DNA from: Candidatus Binatia bacterium
GTDB taxonomy: Bacteria > Desulfobacterota > Binatia > Bin18
Assembly: GCA_022824615.1 (NCBI GenBank)
Contig: JAJDZM010000158.1
Location: 1-55,076 of the forward strand
DNA length: 55,076 nucleotides
Direction of reading: 5' to 3'
This document shows, one piece after another, positions 111-7,917 of the stretch. The translations under genes and the position numbers were made by a program. Positions within the stretch are counted from its first letter, which is position 1. Every line of letters starts with the position of its first letter. The notes beneath the pieces were generated by a model. The model ran no database searches. It saw only the letters and a list, made by a program, of their open reading frames with translations, and was not told the origin of the DNA.

Positions 111-1364
111 TCAAGGCGGATAGGCAATCGCTTCAACCTGAGGCGTCTGTTGTCGCTCCGGACTGGCCCGGAAGGTTTTTGCGAGTTCGCGGTCCAGGAC
201 GTCTTCGGCGACATAGCCGGTAAACGCGCGCTGTACCGTGCCGTCAGGAGCAAACAGGAAACTGCTCGGCAGGGCAAACACCTGATAGCGCAGACCGATC
301 TCGTCCGACAGGTCACGGCCAATGGCGTACGGGATATTGTATTTGCGGACAAAGTCCCGCACCCCGTCTTCTTCACTCTGCAAGGCGACCCCAATCACGG
401 CAAATCCCTGACGTTTATACTTGTGGTACATACGGACCAAGGCTGGCGTTTCGATGACGCACGGGCCGCACCAGGTCGCCCAGAAATTGACCAGAACCAC
501 TTTGCCCTCATAGTCGGACAAACTCACCAGATCGCCATCAATGGTCGTCAGGGTAAAATTATAGTCGCCGTATTTACTCGGCGCTGGCAGCGCGTCAGAC
601 GCAACCGGCGTGGAAGCATCTGCTTTTTGGACCTCGCTGACGAGCAGCTCTTCCGGGTTCAAAAAAGTCAGCCGCGACGAGACCCAGGCGAGCTTATCGG
701 TAAAGATGAGCAGACCGACCAGGACGAGCAGCATGCCGGCCGTCACTTCCATTTGCCGCAGATAGCCCTTCATTCCCTGGAAGAGCGACAGAAAGCCGTT
801 CAGGAAGGCGGCCGAGAGCATAAACGGGATGCCGAGGCCCAGCGAATACACCGCCAGCAAGAGAACCCCCTGACTGAGCGTCTCGGTTGTTGCGGCTATG
901 GCCAGAATACCGGCCAGAATCGGGCCAACGCACGGCGTCCAGCCAAAGGCAAAAAACAGCCCCGCAACAAAAGCCCGGATCATACCGGGTTCCGCGGGCT
1001 CTTTGGAAAAGCGGCGCTCCCGGAGCAAGGCCGGGATGGGCAATACCCCGGCCAGATGCAGCCCAAGGACCATAATGCCAAGGCCGGCGACGCCTTTGAG
1101 GATGCCCAGGTTTGATCTGAGCAGTCCACTCACCGCAGAGGCCGAGGCGCCCAGGGCAATAAACACCAGAGAGAAGCCCAACACAAAGGGGATGCTCTTG
1201 ATCAGCGCGCTGGTCATCAGTTGCGCCGAGCGCTGGCGGGCGGTGAGATGCTCAAAGCTCATGCCGGTAATAAAGGTCAAATAGCCGGGCACGATAGGCA
1301 GGACGCACGGCGAGGCAAAAGACAGAAAGCCGGCCAGCAGAGCAATACCAAGTCCGATATCCAT
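111..1364 (-). CDS. CcdA-type membrane electron carrier fused to a TlpA/ResA thioredoxin domain
   Basis: A 417-residue fusion. Residues 1-240 or so form a CcdA/DsbD transmembrane domain with the two Cys-Pro motifs of that family, FASPCVLP near the N terminus and FGWTPCVGP about 140 residues in. The family moves reducing equivalents from cytoplasmic thioredoxin across the membrane. Residues ~262-400 are a TlpA/ResA-like thioredoxin fold with the active site WCGPC near residues 297-301. The two modules are separate proteins in many bacteria; here donor and periplasmic acceptor are one chain. The likely role is keeping periplasmic thiols reduced, for example apocytochrome c haem-binding cysteines during cytochrome c maturation. 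The assignment is firm at family level; the exact substrate is inferred. Confidence 0.9.
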   Translation of the reverse strand: MDIGLGIALLAGFLSFASPCVLPIVPGYLTFITGMSFEHLTARQRSAQLMTSALIKSIPFVLGFSLVFIALGASASAVSGLLRSNLGILKGVAGLGIMVLGLHLAGVLPIPALLRERRFSKEPAEPGMIRAFVAGLFFAFGWTPCVGPILAGILAIAATTETLSQGVLLLAVYSLGLGIPFMLSAAFLNGFLSLFQGMKGYLRQMEVTAGMLLVLVGLLIFTDKLAWVSSRLTFLNPEELLVSEVQKADASTPVASDALPAPSKYGDYNFTLTTIDGDLVSLSDYEGKVVLVNFWATWCGPCVIETPALVRMYHKYKRQGFAVIGVALQSEEDGVRDFVRKYNIPYAIGRDLSDEIGLRYQVFALPSSFLFAPDGTVQRAFTGYVAEDVLDRELAKTFRASPERQQTPQVEAIAYPP

Positions 1365-1548: not shown

Positions 1549-2055
1549 CTATAGGCGATTTCCAGATAAGCGCAAAGACGGGTCAGTCCTTATGACGCGC
1601 CGTCGCTTCTCTCTGAAGAAGCGCTGGAGGAACGTCCGACACTCCTCTTCACAGACCCCACCCGTGACGTCCGGGCGATGATTCAGACGGGTATCCAGGG
1701 CGATATTATACAATGACCCTGCTGCGCCGGCCTTGGGGTCAAAACAGCCAAAGACGAGGCGTTTGACCCGCGCAGACACGAGCGCCCCCATACACATGAG
1801 ACAGGGCTCGACCGTTGAATACAACGTCGCGTCTACCAGCCGGTAATTCTTCATCTGCCACGCGGCATTTCGCATGGCCTGGATTTCAGCGTGCGCCGTC
1901 GGGTCGCTGGTTGAAATAGGCGTATTATGCCCCCGGCCGATGATTTGCCTTTCCAGGACGACGACCGCACCAATGGGCACTTCGTCCGCGGCTTCGGCCA
2001 GGGCGGCTTCGGCCAGGGCGGCGTGCATCCAGGCTCTATCCTGTTCGGTATGCAT
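1549..2055 (-). CDS. tadA: tRNA-specific adenosine deaminase TadA
   Basis: The product of 168 residues is a zinc-dependent deaminase of the cytidine/deoxycytidylate deaminase fold that converts the wobble adenosine of tRNA-Arg(ACG) to inosine. The catalytic HAE motif is at residues 55-57 and the zinc ligands PCxxC at 84-88. The frame is open further upstream, but the ATG at 2055 starts exactly where TadA proteins normally begin (MHTEQDRAWM). Longer versions would overlap the upstream MBL-fold gene deeply; with this start the overlap is 20 bases. It lies next to a tRNA gene, but that tRNA-Ser(CGA) is not a TadA substrate, so the adjacency has no evident functional meaning. Confidence 0.93.
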   Translation of the reverse strand: MHTEQDRAWMHAALAEAALAEAADEVPIGAVVVLERQIIGRGHNTPISTSDPTAHAEIQAMRNAAWQMKNYRLVDATLYSTVEPCLMCMGALVSARVKRLVFGCFDPKAGAAGSLYNIALDTRLNHRPDVTGGVCEEECRTFLQRFFREKRRRVIRTDPSLRLSGNRL

Positions 2056-3649
2056 GAACAACTCGGCGCAGTTCTTCCAGCGTTCCCACCCCTCCCCGGC
2101 TGCCGACAATGGTCTCGACCGCGAGGTCGTAACTCTCAATGGCGTTGAGGAGATCCCGGGACCAATCAACAACCTGTCGGACGGCTCCCGGCGTAAACAG
2201 GTCGGCCACAAAAAGCAGGCGTTCTTCAGGCAGATAGACGATCAACATGCCGTCCACATGCACGGTCTCGATCGGGTAGACAATCACCACCCGATTTTCA
2301 TCAACAAAAAACTTGCGTTCATTCCTGACCGCTTCGATGACCGCCTCTCTGGGGCGCCGCTGGAGACTGTCCGGGACTTGGGTGTGCAGGGCACGAAAGA
2401 CGTCCTGGAAGAGCGGAACGTTCAACGTACTGGTCACCACAATCGTATCAGCAGCCACATAGGTCCGCAGTCCCCCCGCATGCTCGCTATGAAAATGCGT
2501 ATTCACGACAAAACGGACCGGCTTGGTTGGGAATCGCTGACGTAAGGTGTCCAGCACCGCGCGTGAGTGCGGGTCGTCCTGGGGGGCCTCAACCACAATC
2601 AGGTACTCGCCCATCTCAATCGCCAGACTCTGATATCGTCCCCCGACAACATGCATCACGCCTGGGGCAAGGTCGCGCAGCGCGAGCGTTGAAGCGGGCG
2701 GGTCGACCGGTCGGCCCTGAGCAATCTGACGCAGCACCCAGTGAGAACTCTGCTCTCCGCGTTCTCCGTCCCACTCTTCCGGGTGCTCGATCTCGTCCGG
2801 AATGGTAAAGTCCACGGGCGATAGATCAACGTCATTCTGGATGGCTTCAACGTGTTCGACCATGATGGTCTGGCCGTCGACCCGATAGATGCGCTCAAAC
2901 GGGAGTTTCAGCTTTCCGACCTGCCGCCAGTCCGAAAAAAACACCTCGTTCTGCACATCGCCGTACAAAGGGTCGTCTTCAACAAAGATGACCTTGGTCA
3001 GCAGGCGCGTCTCCGCGTCGATGGCCAGCACGACGAGCTGGGTATTGTCATTAAACGAGACAACCACCTGGCGGCGACCATGAATCGTTTGATCCATCAG
3101 ACGCAGGAAGGAGTTCGAACGACTCAGGGCATGAATCAGGATGGAGACGGGCGAGCGCCGCAACTCTTTGTGGCGGGCGGCAATACGGGAGGCCGACATG
3201 GCCCGGCGACACGGGCTCTCAAAGCCATCGCAGCCGAGTATGGCGCCGTCGAGTCCGTTCATGATCTCGGTGTAGGCCCAGGTCTCCTGGAAGGGATAGA
3301 CCAGCCTGCGCTCCCACTCGTAGCGCACGCGGCCCTTCTCCAGGTCTTGGAACAACACGTAACGAAATTCTGACACCTTCCGGGGTTCGGCTCCGGGCCG
3401 GGGACTCAGGTCGGGCTCAAAATTCTCGCCATGACTGATAATCCGCTGACTTTTGAGGTCCAGCAGGACCGGCCGTTCGCCAATAGCGAGCACGGCCGAA
3501 TTCACGAACACCTTGGCGGGTTGGGCAGAGGCAGGAGCAGGGCCAAAGAGCAGCGGCAGACAGACTCCCCAGACCAGACGTGTCGCCATGCTGATGCTAC
3601 TCCGTTTTTTCATTCGGACTCTATTCCGGGGTTTACTCGGCTTTTGCAA
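2036..3649 (-). CDS. secreted metallo-beta-lactamase-fold protein with an altered metal site
   Basis: Up to 537 residues. The N terminus is a plausible Sec signal peptide (MKKRSSISMATRLVWG followed by a hydrophobic stretch and ASA), best fitted by the in-frame ATG at 3613. Residues ~55-310 contain an outer-membrane-lipoprotein-sorting or DUF1329-like beta-rich region that I cannot name firmly. The C-terminal ~220 residues are an MBL fold. Its metal motif reads THFHSEHAGG, with Glu where HxHxDH has Asp. An Asp is present in VADLFTPG, but the usual late Gly-His-Gly is replaced by GSRGGVG. It may therefore bind one metal or be weakly active. It resembles periplasmic MBL hydrolases of the SoxH/quinoprotein-relay type; the substrate is unknown. 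Its last 20 bases overlap tadA. Confidence 0.7.
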   Translation of the reverse strand: MQKPSKPRNRVRMKKRSSISMATRLVWGVCLPLLFGPAPASAQPAKVFVNSAVLAIGERPVLLDLKSQRIISHGENFEPDLSPRPGAEPRKVSEFRYVLFQDLEKGRVRYEWERRLVYPFQETWAYTEIMNGLDGAILGCDGFESPCRRAMSASRIAARHKELRRSPVSILIHALSRSNSFLRLMDQTIHGRRQVVVSFNDNTQLVVLAIDAETRLLTKVIFVEDDPLYGDVQNEVFFSDWRQVGKLKLPFERIYRVDGQTIMVEHVEAIQNDVDLSPVDFTIPDEIEHPEEWDGERGEQSSHWVLRQIAQGRPVDPPASTLALRDLAPGVMHVVGGRYQSLAIEMGEYLIVVEAPQDDPHSRAVLDTLRQRFPTKPVRFVVNTHFHSEHAGGLRTYVAADTIVVTSTLNVPLFQDVFRALHTQVPDSLQRRPREAVIEAVRNERKFFVDENRVVIVYPIETVHVDGMLIVYLPEERLLFVADLFTPGAVRQVVDWSRDLLNAIESYDLAVETIVGSRGGVGTLEELRRVVHAYRTG

Positions 3650-3741: not shown

Positions 3742-4365
3742 CTAACCGGTCAGACCAATCCGGACCTCTTCGTAACTCGGCCGGCTCTTCAGCCGCTCGG
3801 CCCAGGCCGCGACGTGTGGAAATGGACTGAGGTCAATACCCAATTTGTCGCACAACCCAAGAAACGGGGTAAAGGTGAGGTCGGCCAGGCTATAGTCGCC
3901 CATGAGATAGTCTTGATTCTGGAGCCGTTCTTCGAGTTGCGGAAAGAGCGCCTTGAGCCGGTCGGCATTCCGGGCCATGCGGGCCGGGTCTTGTTCGGCT
4001 TTGGGTTTCCGGCTGGTGTAGAGTAGACGAATGATCGGTGGCACGAACTGACTATTACACAGTTCGATGAGCAGCCGCATTTCAGCCTTGGCGGCTGGCG
4101 CCGACGGGGAGAGTGCCGGCGTGGGGTATTGGTCTTCCAAATACTCGTTACAGATAGCCGACTCGTAGACCCAGGCGCCTTCTTCGACCAGCACCGGCAC
4201 TTTCCCGTACGGGTTAATCGAAAGAAACCACGATTCTTTTTGTTCCTTGCTCGGCAGGTCTATAAGAATGCGATCAAAGTCGAGCGCCTTTTCTTTGAGA
4301 ACAATCCTTGTTCTCATGGCGAACGGTCAAGGCAGATAGTCGAACAGCTTTCTTTTGATAGTCAT
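3742..4365 (-). CDS. glutathione S-transferase family protein, predicted selenoprotein (Sec13)
   Basis: Taken from the first downstream ATG (4317), the protein would lack the first beta strand and active-site loop of a thioredoxin-fold GST. The same frame continues upstream through a single in-frame TGA (4329-4327) to an ATG at 4365 preceded by AGGAG six bases away. The restored N terminus reads MTIKRKLFDYLP-U-PFAMRTRIVL, so the UGA sits exactly where GSTs carry the catalytic Ser or Cys. Length becomes 207 residues, normal for the family. The N-terminal domain includes the cis-Pro glutathione-binding segment (NPYGKVPVLVEEG) and ES, followed by an all-helical C domain. A perfect hairpin begins 11 nt after the UGA (separate entry). 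Selenocysteine readthrough is inferred; GST identity is firm. A nonsense mutation or sequencing error is the alternative. Confidence 0.8.
4297..4315 (-). promoter_or_regulatory. candidate bacterial SECIS hairpin downstream of the in-frame UGA
   Basis: On the coding (minus) strand GAGAACAA (4315-4308) pairs perfectly with TTGTTCTC (4304-4297) around the loop GGA. The first loop G is 20 nt after the last base of the UGA codon. Bacterial SECIS elements, as I recall them, lie inside the coding region just after UGA, with an apical loop 16-37 nt away and a G among its first two loop bases; this hairpin meets those conditions. It would recruit SelB with Sec-tRNA. Confidence 0.72.
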
Positions 4366-4473
4366 ACCTGGCTCCTCTTCGTATGGCGCAAATCTCTTGA
4401 CATACTGACCCTAGAAAGACCGCGGGTCTACGTCAAGCCTCTCTACCCGGCGAGCGGGCGTGGCCCGTTTCCC

Positions 4474-7101: not shown

Positions 7102-7917
7102 CTACCCCTTCGGCTTGATCATCCTGAAAACTTTGCGGATTACCGCCGAGGCATTCATATACGGGGCAGCCTTGCCCATGTCCGCAATCTCCGTATAACG
7201 ATCACGGATCTGTTCCGGCTGTGGAATCGTCTCGGAGTCAAACAGCACCCCGGCCGCTTCCCGGACCTCTATCTTGGCGTAATAGCCGACTCCGGCCTGA
7301 ATAATATGCCCGGAGTCCGTATTGTCGGGCGCGCACAGCCAGGCGACCGCGGCGGTGACGAACTCGGGTTTCATCAACGGCGCGTATTGCGGGGTGGTTG
7401 CCGGTTCGGACATACGCGTCAGCGCAATCGGGGCAATCGCGTTGACGGTGATATTATGGCGCCGGCCCTCTTCCTTGAGGGAGTTCATGAGCCCAATCAG
7501 GGCCATTTTTACCGTCCCATAGTTGGTATGGCCGTGATTGCCGTACAGACCGGCGGATGAGGTGGTCATCACAATACGGCCAAAGCCTTTTTCCCGCATA
7601 ATGGGCCAGACCGCGTGGGTACAATAGACCGCCCCCATGAGGTGCACGTCAATCAACGACCGAAAATCGTCCAGGTCCATTTTGGCAAAGCTTTTATCCC
7701 GCACGTTTCCCGCGTTGTTAATCAGGATGTCTACCGTACCAAAGGTATCCTGACTAAAGACTACTCGTCCCAGTTCGGTTGCCCTTGCTAACACTGGAGG
7801 GTCATCGAACTCTGCCGTCCCATCTTCGTATGCGGTCAGAACATCAACTCCCCGACTGCGAAGTCCTTGCGTAATCGCCGCAGGAACATGATGATCCATA
7901 TACAGTCGAACACTCAC
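7102..7917 (-). CDS. chimera: N-terminal DUF5615 (PIN-like) toxin half fused to a headless short-chain dehydrogenase
   Basis: A 271-residue open frame built from two unrelated pieces. Residues 1-58 match the start of DUF5615 PIN-like toxins (RLYMDHHVPAAITQGLRSRG, then RVVFSQD) and stop where that family should continue with a second acidic motif. From residue 59 (about base 7743) it is a short-chain dehydrogenase: FGTVDILINNAG, then Ser120/121, Tyr133 and Lys137 of the catalytic set. The first ~85 residues, including the glycine-rich NAD-binding loop, are missing, so it should not work as a dehydrogenase, and the toxin half is incomplete. It overlaps the DUF433 gene by ATGA, as an intact toxin gene would. 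The origin is either a genomic deletion or an assembly join. Confidence 0.8.
   Translation of the reverse strand: MSVRLYMDHHVPAAITQGLRSRGVDVLTAYEDGTAEFDDPPVLARATELGRVVFSQDTFGTVDILINNAGNVRDKSFAKMDLDDFRSLIDVHLMGAVYCTHAVWPIMREKGFGRIVMTTSSAGLYGNHGHTNYGTVKMALIGLMNSLKEEGRRHNITVNAIAPIALTRMSEPATTPQYAPLMKPEFVTAAVAWLCAPDNTDSGHIIQAGVGYYAKIEVREAAGVLFDSETIPQPEQIRDRYTEIADMGKAAPYMNASAVIRKVFRMIKPKG

Follow-up and report, generated by a model that had tools for sequence, protein, structure and literature searches.

Enzymes of the glutathione S-transferase (GST) family mostly use Ser, Tyr or Cys, which raises the question why such a family should pay for selenocysteine (Sec). GST-like selenoproteins (COG0625) have been reported in marine metagenome surveys, as an earlier note on the DNA studied here correctly stated: four are tabulated among the new families from the Sargasso Sea (PMC1088965), and twelve, from eight samples, in the GOS data (PMC2398784). 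One example accession each is given in PMC9312934 and in PMC13188914, and the inventory in the latter, a 2026 review according to which the functions of such selenoprotein families remain largely uncharacterised, lists the GST selenoprotein as PF13409. Predictions of GST selenoproteins in marine metagenomes go back to 2005, and the gene from Candidatus Binatia described below is a host-assigned addition to them.

The gene is located in a stretch of 55,076 nucleotides (hereafter the window), contig C129. The genome to which this contig belongs totals 4.98 Mb in 308 contigs and is rated 89.59% complete and 4.62% contaminated. The features of the gene are as follows:

3742..4365, reverse strand: coding sequence of the Sec-GST, 207 aa, residue 13 being Sec; frame read and translated with TGA=U
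4372..4376, reverse strand: ribosome-binding site AGGAG, preceding ATG 4365; read from the sequence
4330..4365, reverse strand: N-terminal extension of 12 codons including the first beta strand, lost if the start is ATG 4317
4327..4329, reverse strand: predicted Sec codon (UGA), aligned with the catalytic Ser/Cys residue of GSTs
4296..4316, reverse strand: predicted SECIS hairpin of the bacterial type, with 9 bp and a GGA loop (4305-4307) that starts at nucleotide 20 after the UGA
3742-3744, reverse strand: stop codon TAG, end of the Sec-GST frame

The earlier note proposed that the GST frame is open through a single TGA to ATG 4365 with a ribosome site, that the TGA falls in an LP-U-PF motif at the site of the catalytic Ser/Cys, and that the added residues restore the missing first strand. 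Direct reading bears out the frame: ATG 4365-4363 is followed by 12 codons, TGA 4329-4327 and an open frame to TAG 3744-3742, and in the 207-residue translation (TGA=U) U13 stands within LPUPF. The extension also matches homologues in the alignment, which have mostly Cys, Ser or UGA at this residue, and an AlphaFold2 model has the expected strand at residues 5-9. In the extended protein the Pfam GST_N region covers residues 6-77 and GST_C residues 109-196; both GST_N_2 (69.9 bits) and GST_C (45.3 bits) score above the Pfam cut-off, and PF13409 is the top Pfam match of the Binatia Sec-GST.

If the UGA were instead a true stop, translation of the GST would begin only at the internal ATG 4317 and give a product of 191 aa, and a mechanical ORF call indeed returns precisely 3742-4317, starting at ATG 4317, and nothing longer. 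We consider this very unlikely. The 191-aa form would be without strand 1 and the catalytic residue, and no ribosome site is seen before ATG 4317. Comparison with the Sec-GST genes of other Binatia, which fall into clades A (15 genes, the window family), B (39 genes) and C (12 genes), points in the same direction. AGGAG precedes the upstream ATG in all 15 clade-A genes, and the Met at +4 is replaced by His in 39/39 clade-B genes and by Arg in 12/12 clade-C genes, so that these two clades have no start there. In the eight codons before the UGA, 40 of the 42 differences from the majority codon among the 15 clade-A genes are synonymous and two are non-synonymous, although these differences come from related genes and are therefore not independent events. 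Clades B (67 synonymous vs 106 non-synonymous differences) and C (21 vs 16) are less conserved in this region, as their non-synonymous differences indicate, yet both are stop-free over the eight codons. Annotation treating TGA solely as a stop would cut the Sec-GST genes short.

The sel genes, which the earlier note suggested looking for elsewhere in this genome, were all found:

C202:28142-29239: selA
C202:29293-29384: tRNA-Sec (anticodon TCA), beside selA
contig C127: selB
contig C190: selD

The scores of selA (523.7 bits), selB (388.5), selD (309) and tRNA-Sec (70.7 bits) are all above the respective cut-offs. The selD sequence occupies the C-terminal part of an ORF of 755 aa (L016 262-2529), the long first half of which looks like an NADH-dehydrogenase-type domain; by reading, this SelD would have Cys at its own active-site motif. 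In the class as a whole, selB is found above the cut-off in 51/58 genomes that carry a Sec-GST and in 68/90 other Binatia genomes (Fisher p = 0.089), and because of this p-value the co-occurrence lends no strong support. The seven carriers that have no selB above the cut-off are G015, G016, G119, G134, G137, G145 and G146. Among these, G146 has a sub-cut-off match spanning positions 117-580, G015 has tRNA-Sec, and G016 has neither selB nor tRNA-Sec above the cut-off (best tRNA-Sec match 45.8 bits vs 47); the Sec-GST gene of G016 (L083) is itself intact, and its SECIS-type hairpin is perfect. The simple reading is that the missing genes are gaps in metagenome-assembled genomes (MAGs), but G016 is rated 100% complete. 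Another genome, G081, has two selB matches above the cut-off, on separate contigs (C181 and C358).

An open frame under TGA=X would also be expected if the UGA were decoded as another amino acid, by genome-wide reassignment or by suppression. This we regard as extremely unlikely: TGA terminates 6 of the 15 long ORFs of the window, near homologues have Cys or Ser rather than Trp at the aligned residue, and both the Sec genes and a SECIS-type hairpin are present.

To describe the distribution of the gene, a profile of 16 Sec-GSTs was compared with the genomes of 148 Binatia at an E-value limit of 1e-45, the best 21 or fewer candidates per genome being scored. Among the matches listed, at least 66 GST genes in 58 of the 148 genomes have TGA at the site; these genes, each with exactly one TGA, occupy ranks 1-65 and rank 67, and reading of all 66 places the TGA at the identical residue. 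A match with one TGA elsewhere and Cys at the site (L062) was not counted as a Sec gene. At the Sec site the fetched GST loci have TGA (94), Ser (25), Cys (18), Ala (4), Thr (3) or a gap (6), and all 94 stops are TGA (duplicates included; 66 distinct). The TGA is kept in 7/7 genomes of the genus and in 8/9 further genomes of the family; the remaining one (G009) has no such GST gene, yet possesses selB and tRNA-Sec. An isolated TGA in a draft assembly frequently turns out to be an error. Here, however, 66 distinct loci from 58 genomes, many of them assembled separately and two from the genus (G001, G006) being single-contig assemblies, share the TGA at a single position, flanked on both sides by open frame. 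This already refutes a sequencing error or pseudogene, the probability of which is negligible.

Among 391 relatives, which must extend beyond Binatia because the class had 148 genomes, matches with E <= 1e-70, a threshold too stringent to pick up distant Sec-GSTs from other phyla, occur in 61 genomes. All 61 are Binatia, namely the 58 Sec carriers and three genomes whose match has no stop. A search of viral contigs found nothing. The nearest named records (95-97% protein identity) are six Candidatus Binatota/Binatia MAGs, including Desulfurellaceae bacterium bin18, which from its name is probably the Binatota bin18 reported in the sponge Aplysina aerophoba (PMC9999580). In the accessible text of that report, selenocysteine occurs solely in the title of a reference on methanogens. 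Our search of the open literature with a few name pairs found no report of Binatia selenoproteins; as far as searched, the distribution of Sec-GST in Binatia looks unreported.

Downstream of the UGA, the 8-bp hairpin with loop GGA and an 11-nt spacer that the earlier note had pointed out is present, and an additional U-A pair extends it to 9 bp. The 9-bp hairpin (4316-4296) has an energy of -8.7 kcal/mol, with 0/200 shuffled sequences equally stable, and the fold from the UGA to +42 one of -12.4 kcal/mol, with 3/200 shuffles equally stable. The four constraints described for bSECIS elements in PMC13188914 (Fig. 2 legend) are an apical loop of 3-9 nt with an upper stem of 4-16 bp, a G at loop position 1 or 2 (in most cases as GG or GU), a distance of 16-37 nt from the UGA to the apical loop, and a minimum free energy of at most -7.5 kcal/mol. 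The window gene has a 3-nt loop, GGA, on a 9-bp stem at a distance of 19 nt (32 nt in clade C), and both energies given above lie within the limit, of which the inner 8 bp alone (-7.1 kcal/mol) fall short. An Rfam search gave no match.

To assess how often such a hairpin is encountered, we used a strict rule, fixed only after the hairpin had been seen, which specifies an 8-bp Watson-Crick stem and a 3-nt loop starting with GG, 14-40 nt downstream of a TGA. It singles out one of the 1,786 TGA trinucleotides of the window (772 + 1,014 on the two strands), the one at 4329. The base rate over the codons of the 15 long window ORFs is 9/8,169, and 9/200,000 synonymous recodings of the 23 downstream residues give a strict hairpin. 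With a lax rule, which allows G-U pairs and any 3-7 nt loop containing G, about 10% of the synonymous recodings attain 8 bp, and 5/24 Ser homologues attain 7-11 bp. We rejected the count of lax hairpins as a test, since the amino acid sequence alone yields about 10%; for the same reason a hairpin in a single sequence is weak evidence, and it is conservation that counts.

The hairpin is conserved among the Sec genes. The strict Watson-Crick form is found in 49/66 of them (A 8/15, B 30/39, C 11/12) vs 0/41 Cys/Ser homologues (0/17 Cys, 0/24 Ser). The other 17 fail the strict rule, some through G-U pairs, and in 4 of the 46 distinct A+B hairpins the cause is a U-U mismatch one pair from the loop-closing pair. 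If G-U pairs are allowed (lax rule), 8 bp are attained in 13/15 genes of clade A, 32/39 of B and 12/12 of C, vs 0/17 Cys and 2/24 Ser homologues. According to an automatic rule, the loop starts at nucleotide 20 after the UGA in 50/54 A+B genes, and at nucleotide 33, on a different stem, in 12/12 clade-C genes. The Arg codon at +7 is AGG in all 54 A+B genes, compared to 22/623 Arg codons in the 15 long window ORFs, and codons +10 to +14 of clade C are CTT TTG GAA AAA GGG in 12/12 genes.

For the 46 distinct A+B sequences, 97.6% of the cells are paired and 29 cells are two-sided, each value being reached by 0/500 shuffles; slid controls have 0-4 two-sided cells. The covariation score (0.253) is likewise attained by 0/500 shuffles, the count of additional pair types (8) by 19/500, and the count of pairs that changed on both sides (3/8) by 389/500. 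RNAalifold returned the same 8 pairs unprompted. By these comparisons, clades A and B have a common predicted hairpin with compensatory changes. The hairpin of clade C is nearly invariant over 10 distinct sequences and exhibits no covariation, a measure that is uninformative here because the hairpin hardly varies.

In order to infer the history of the Sec residue, two trees were calculated. The set excluded identical proteins, 13 rows in which the site is occupied by Ala, Thr or a gap, the short L038, and L061, which has a stop a short way upstream within the cut. The first tree comprised 107 rows, some with long branches, and the second 97 rows, after removal of L022, L023, L024, L027, L034, L035, L077, L078, L088 and L089, with the Sec residue and the following 14 masked; the midpoint root serves for drawing only. 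On the second tree clades A, B and C are each supported 100/100 (clade C 71/78 on the first). The A+B grouping, with support of 32/10, is not shown to be one clade. In the best tree, clade C groups with nine Ser GSTs (96/88); a single Sec clade is not rejected (AU p = 0.336), and the number of changes needed between Sec and no Sec is three on the first tree and two on the second. The unrelated hairpins at different distances and the position of clade C beside Ser-type GSTs suggest that Sec perhaps arose separately. We give about even chances to Sec having entered Binatia GSTs at least twice, in A/B and in C, the separate origin possibly following a Ser -> Sec route.

The AlphaFold2 model (with Sec as Cys) has a GST fold, with mean pLDDT of 92.6 and pTM of 0.88. 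Helix 14-25 follows strand 5-9, which places Sec13 at the helix start. Pfam, AlphaFold2 and Foldseek concur in both the thioredoxin-like N domain and the helical C domain of the cytosolic GST superfamily. The top Foldseek rows comprise plant phi GSTs, LigF, SspA with bound glutathione and fungal Ure2p-type proteins, with 21-32% identity over the best 50 rows listed. The best matches by sequence are the SspA-type 6v91 and 4qq7 (E about 1e-27). K55-V56-P57 and S69, presumably involved in glutathione binding, are invariant in 16 aligned Sec-GSTs.

Taken together, the gene very probably encodes a cytosolic-type GST in which UGA 4327-4329 would be read as Sec by SelB and tRNA-Sec, aided by the hairpin just 3' of it; the Sec insertion proposed in the earlier note is supported by the frame, the hairpin, the sel genes, the conservation of both UGA and hairpin, and the Cys and Ser homologues. 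Two of the three observations that the note named as refuting it, a genome devoid of sel genes and homologues that do not match the extension, were not borne out. From the GST-fold neighbours and the SspA-type Cys aligned with Sec13 we infer a function of the selenolate with glutathione. The Sec13 selenolate, at the N-terminus of helix 1, would form a mixed selenosulfide with glutathione and may reduce electrophiles such as peroxides or disulfides, for which Cys-type (omega-like) GSTs employ a thiol. The protein would then be a selenol-based, glutathione-dependent reductase or peroxidase, in keeping with the suggestion of the earlier note that Sec may render the GST more nucleophilic, or a peroxidase. 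A monothiol-like cycle through the selenosulfide with glutathione appears likeliest, because the Sec-GST (UPFA) has no CxxU or UxxC motif.

As regards the genomic neighborhood, a metallo-beta-lactamase-fold gene (2036-3649, reverse strand), the product of which has what looks like a signal peptide, lies beside the Sec-GST in six named genus records and in 6/8 further clade-A loci. In a search for a conserved operon, the aminotransferase and luciferase-like neighbours were found in the genus only, and none of the window neighbours in 43 clade-B/C loci, most flanks of which cover only about 0.6 kb. We claim no functional link between the Sec-GST and its neighbours. Elsewhere in the window, an ORF at 7102-7917 (reverse strand) has a DUF5615 start running straight into an SDR dehydrogenase that is devoid of its N-terminus, adjoined by DUF433 and HI1420-type antidote genes; this fusion may be the trace of a recombination event or a joining artefact of the assembly. 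At 111-1364 (reverse strand), a DsbD-like membrane domain is fused to a ResA/AhpC-type redoxin domain.

Compared to known systems, the SspA-like proteins 4qq7 (with glutathione bound) and 6v91 have the same fold according to Foldseek, and SspA-like and omega GSTs have Cys, aligned with Sec13 in these two structures, where the Binatia protein has Sec. For the omega GST 1eem the match starts at query residue 7 and chain residue 26, so that residue 13 corresponds, if ungapped, to position 32, and Cys32 is what we take to be the omega catalytic residue. Two GST paralogues of the own genome (on contigs C97 and C191), with 38% and 36% identity to the Sec-GST, have Ser at the site, and their best strict stems are 0 and 2 bp. 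The Sargasso and GOS GSTs resemble the Binatia protein in the GST domain, Sec with Cys homologues, a bacterial SECIS and no CxxU or UxxC motif listed, a comparison made by description only. Those are metagenome sequences with no host named in the accessible text, whereas the Binatia set provides whole genes, a host class, three clades and two SECIS placements. With 66 genes assigned to a host class, a defined SECIS and homologues that naturally carry Cys or Ser instead, the reason for using Sec can be tested directly.
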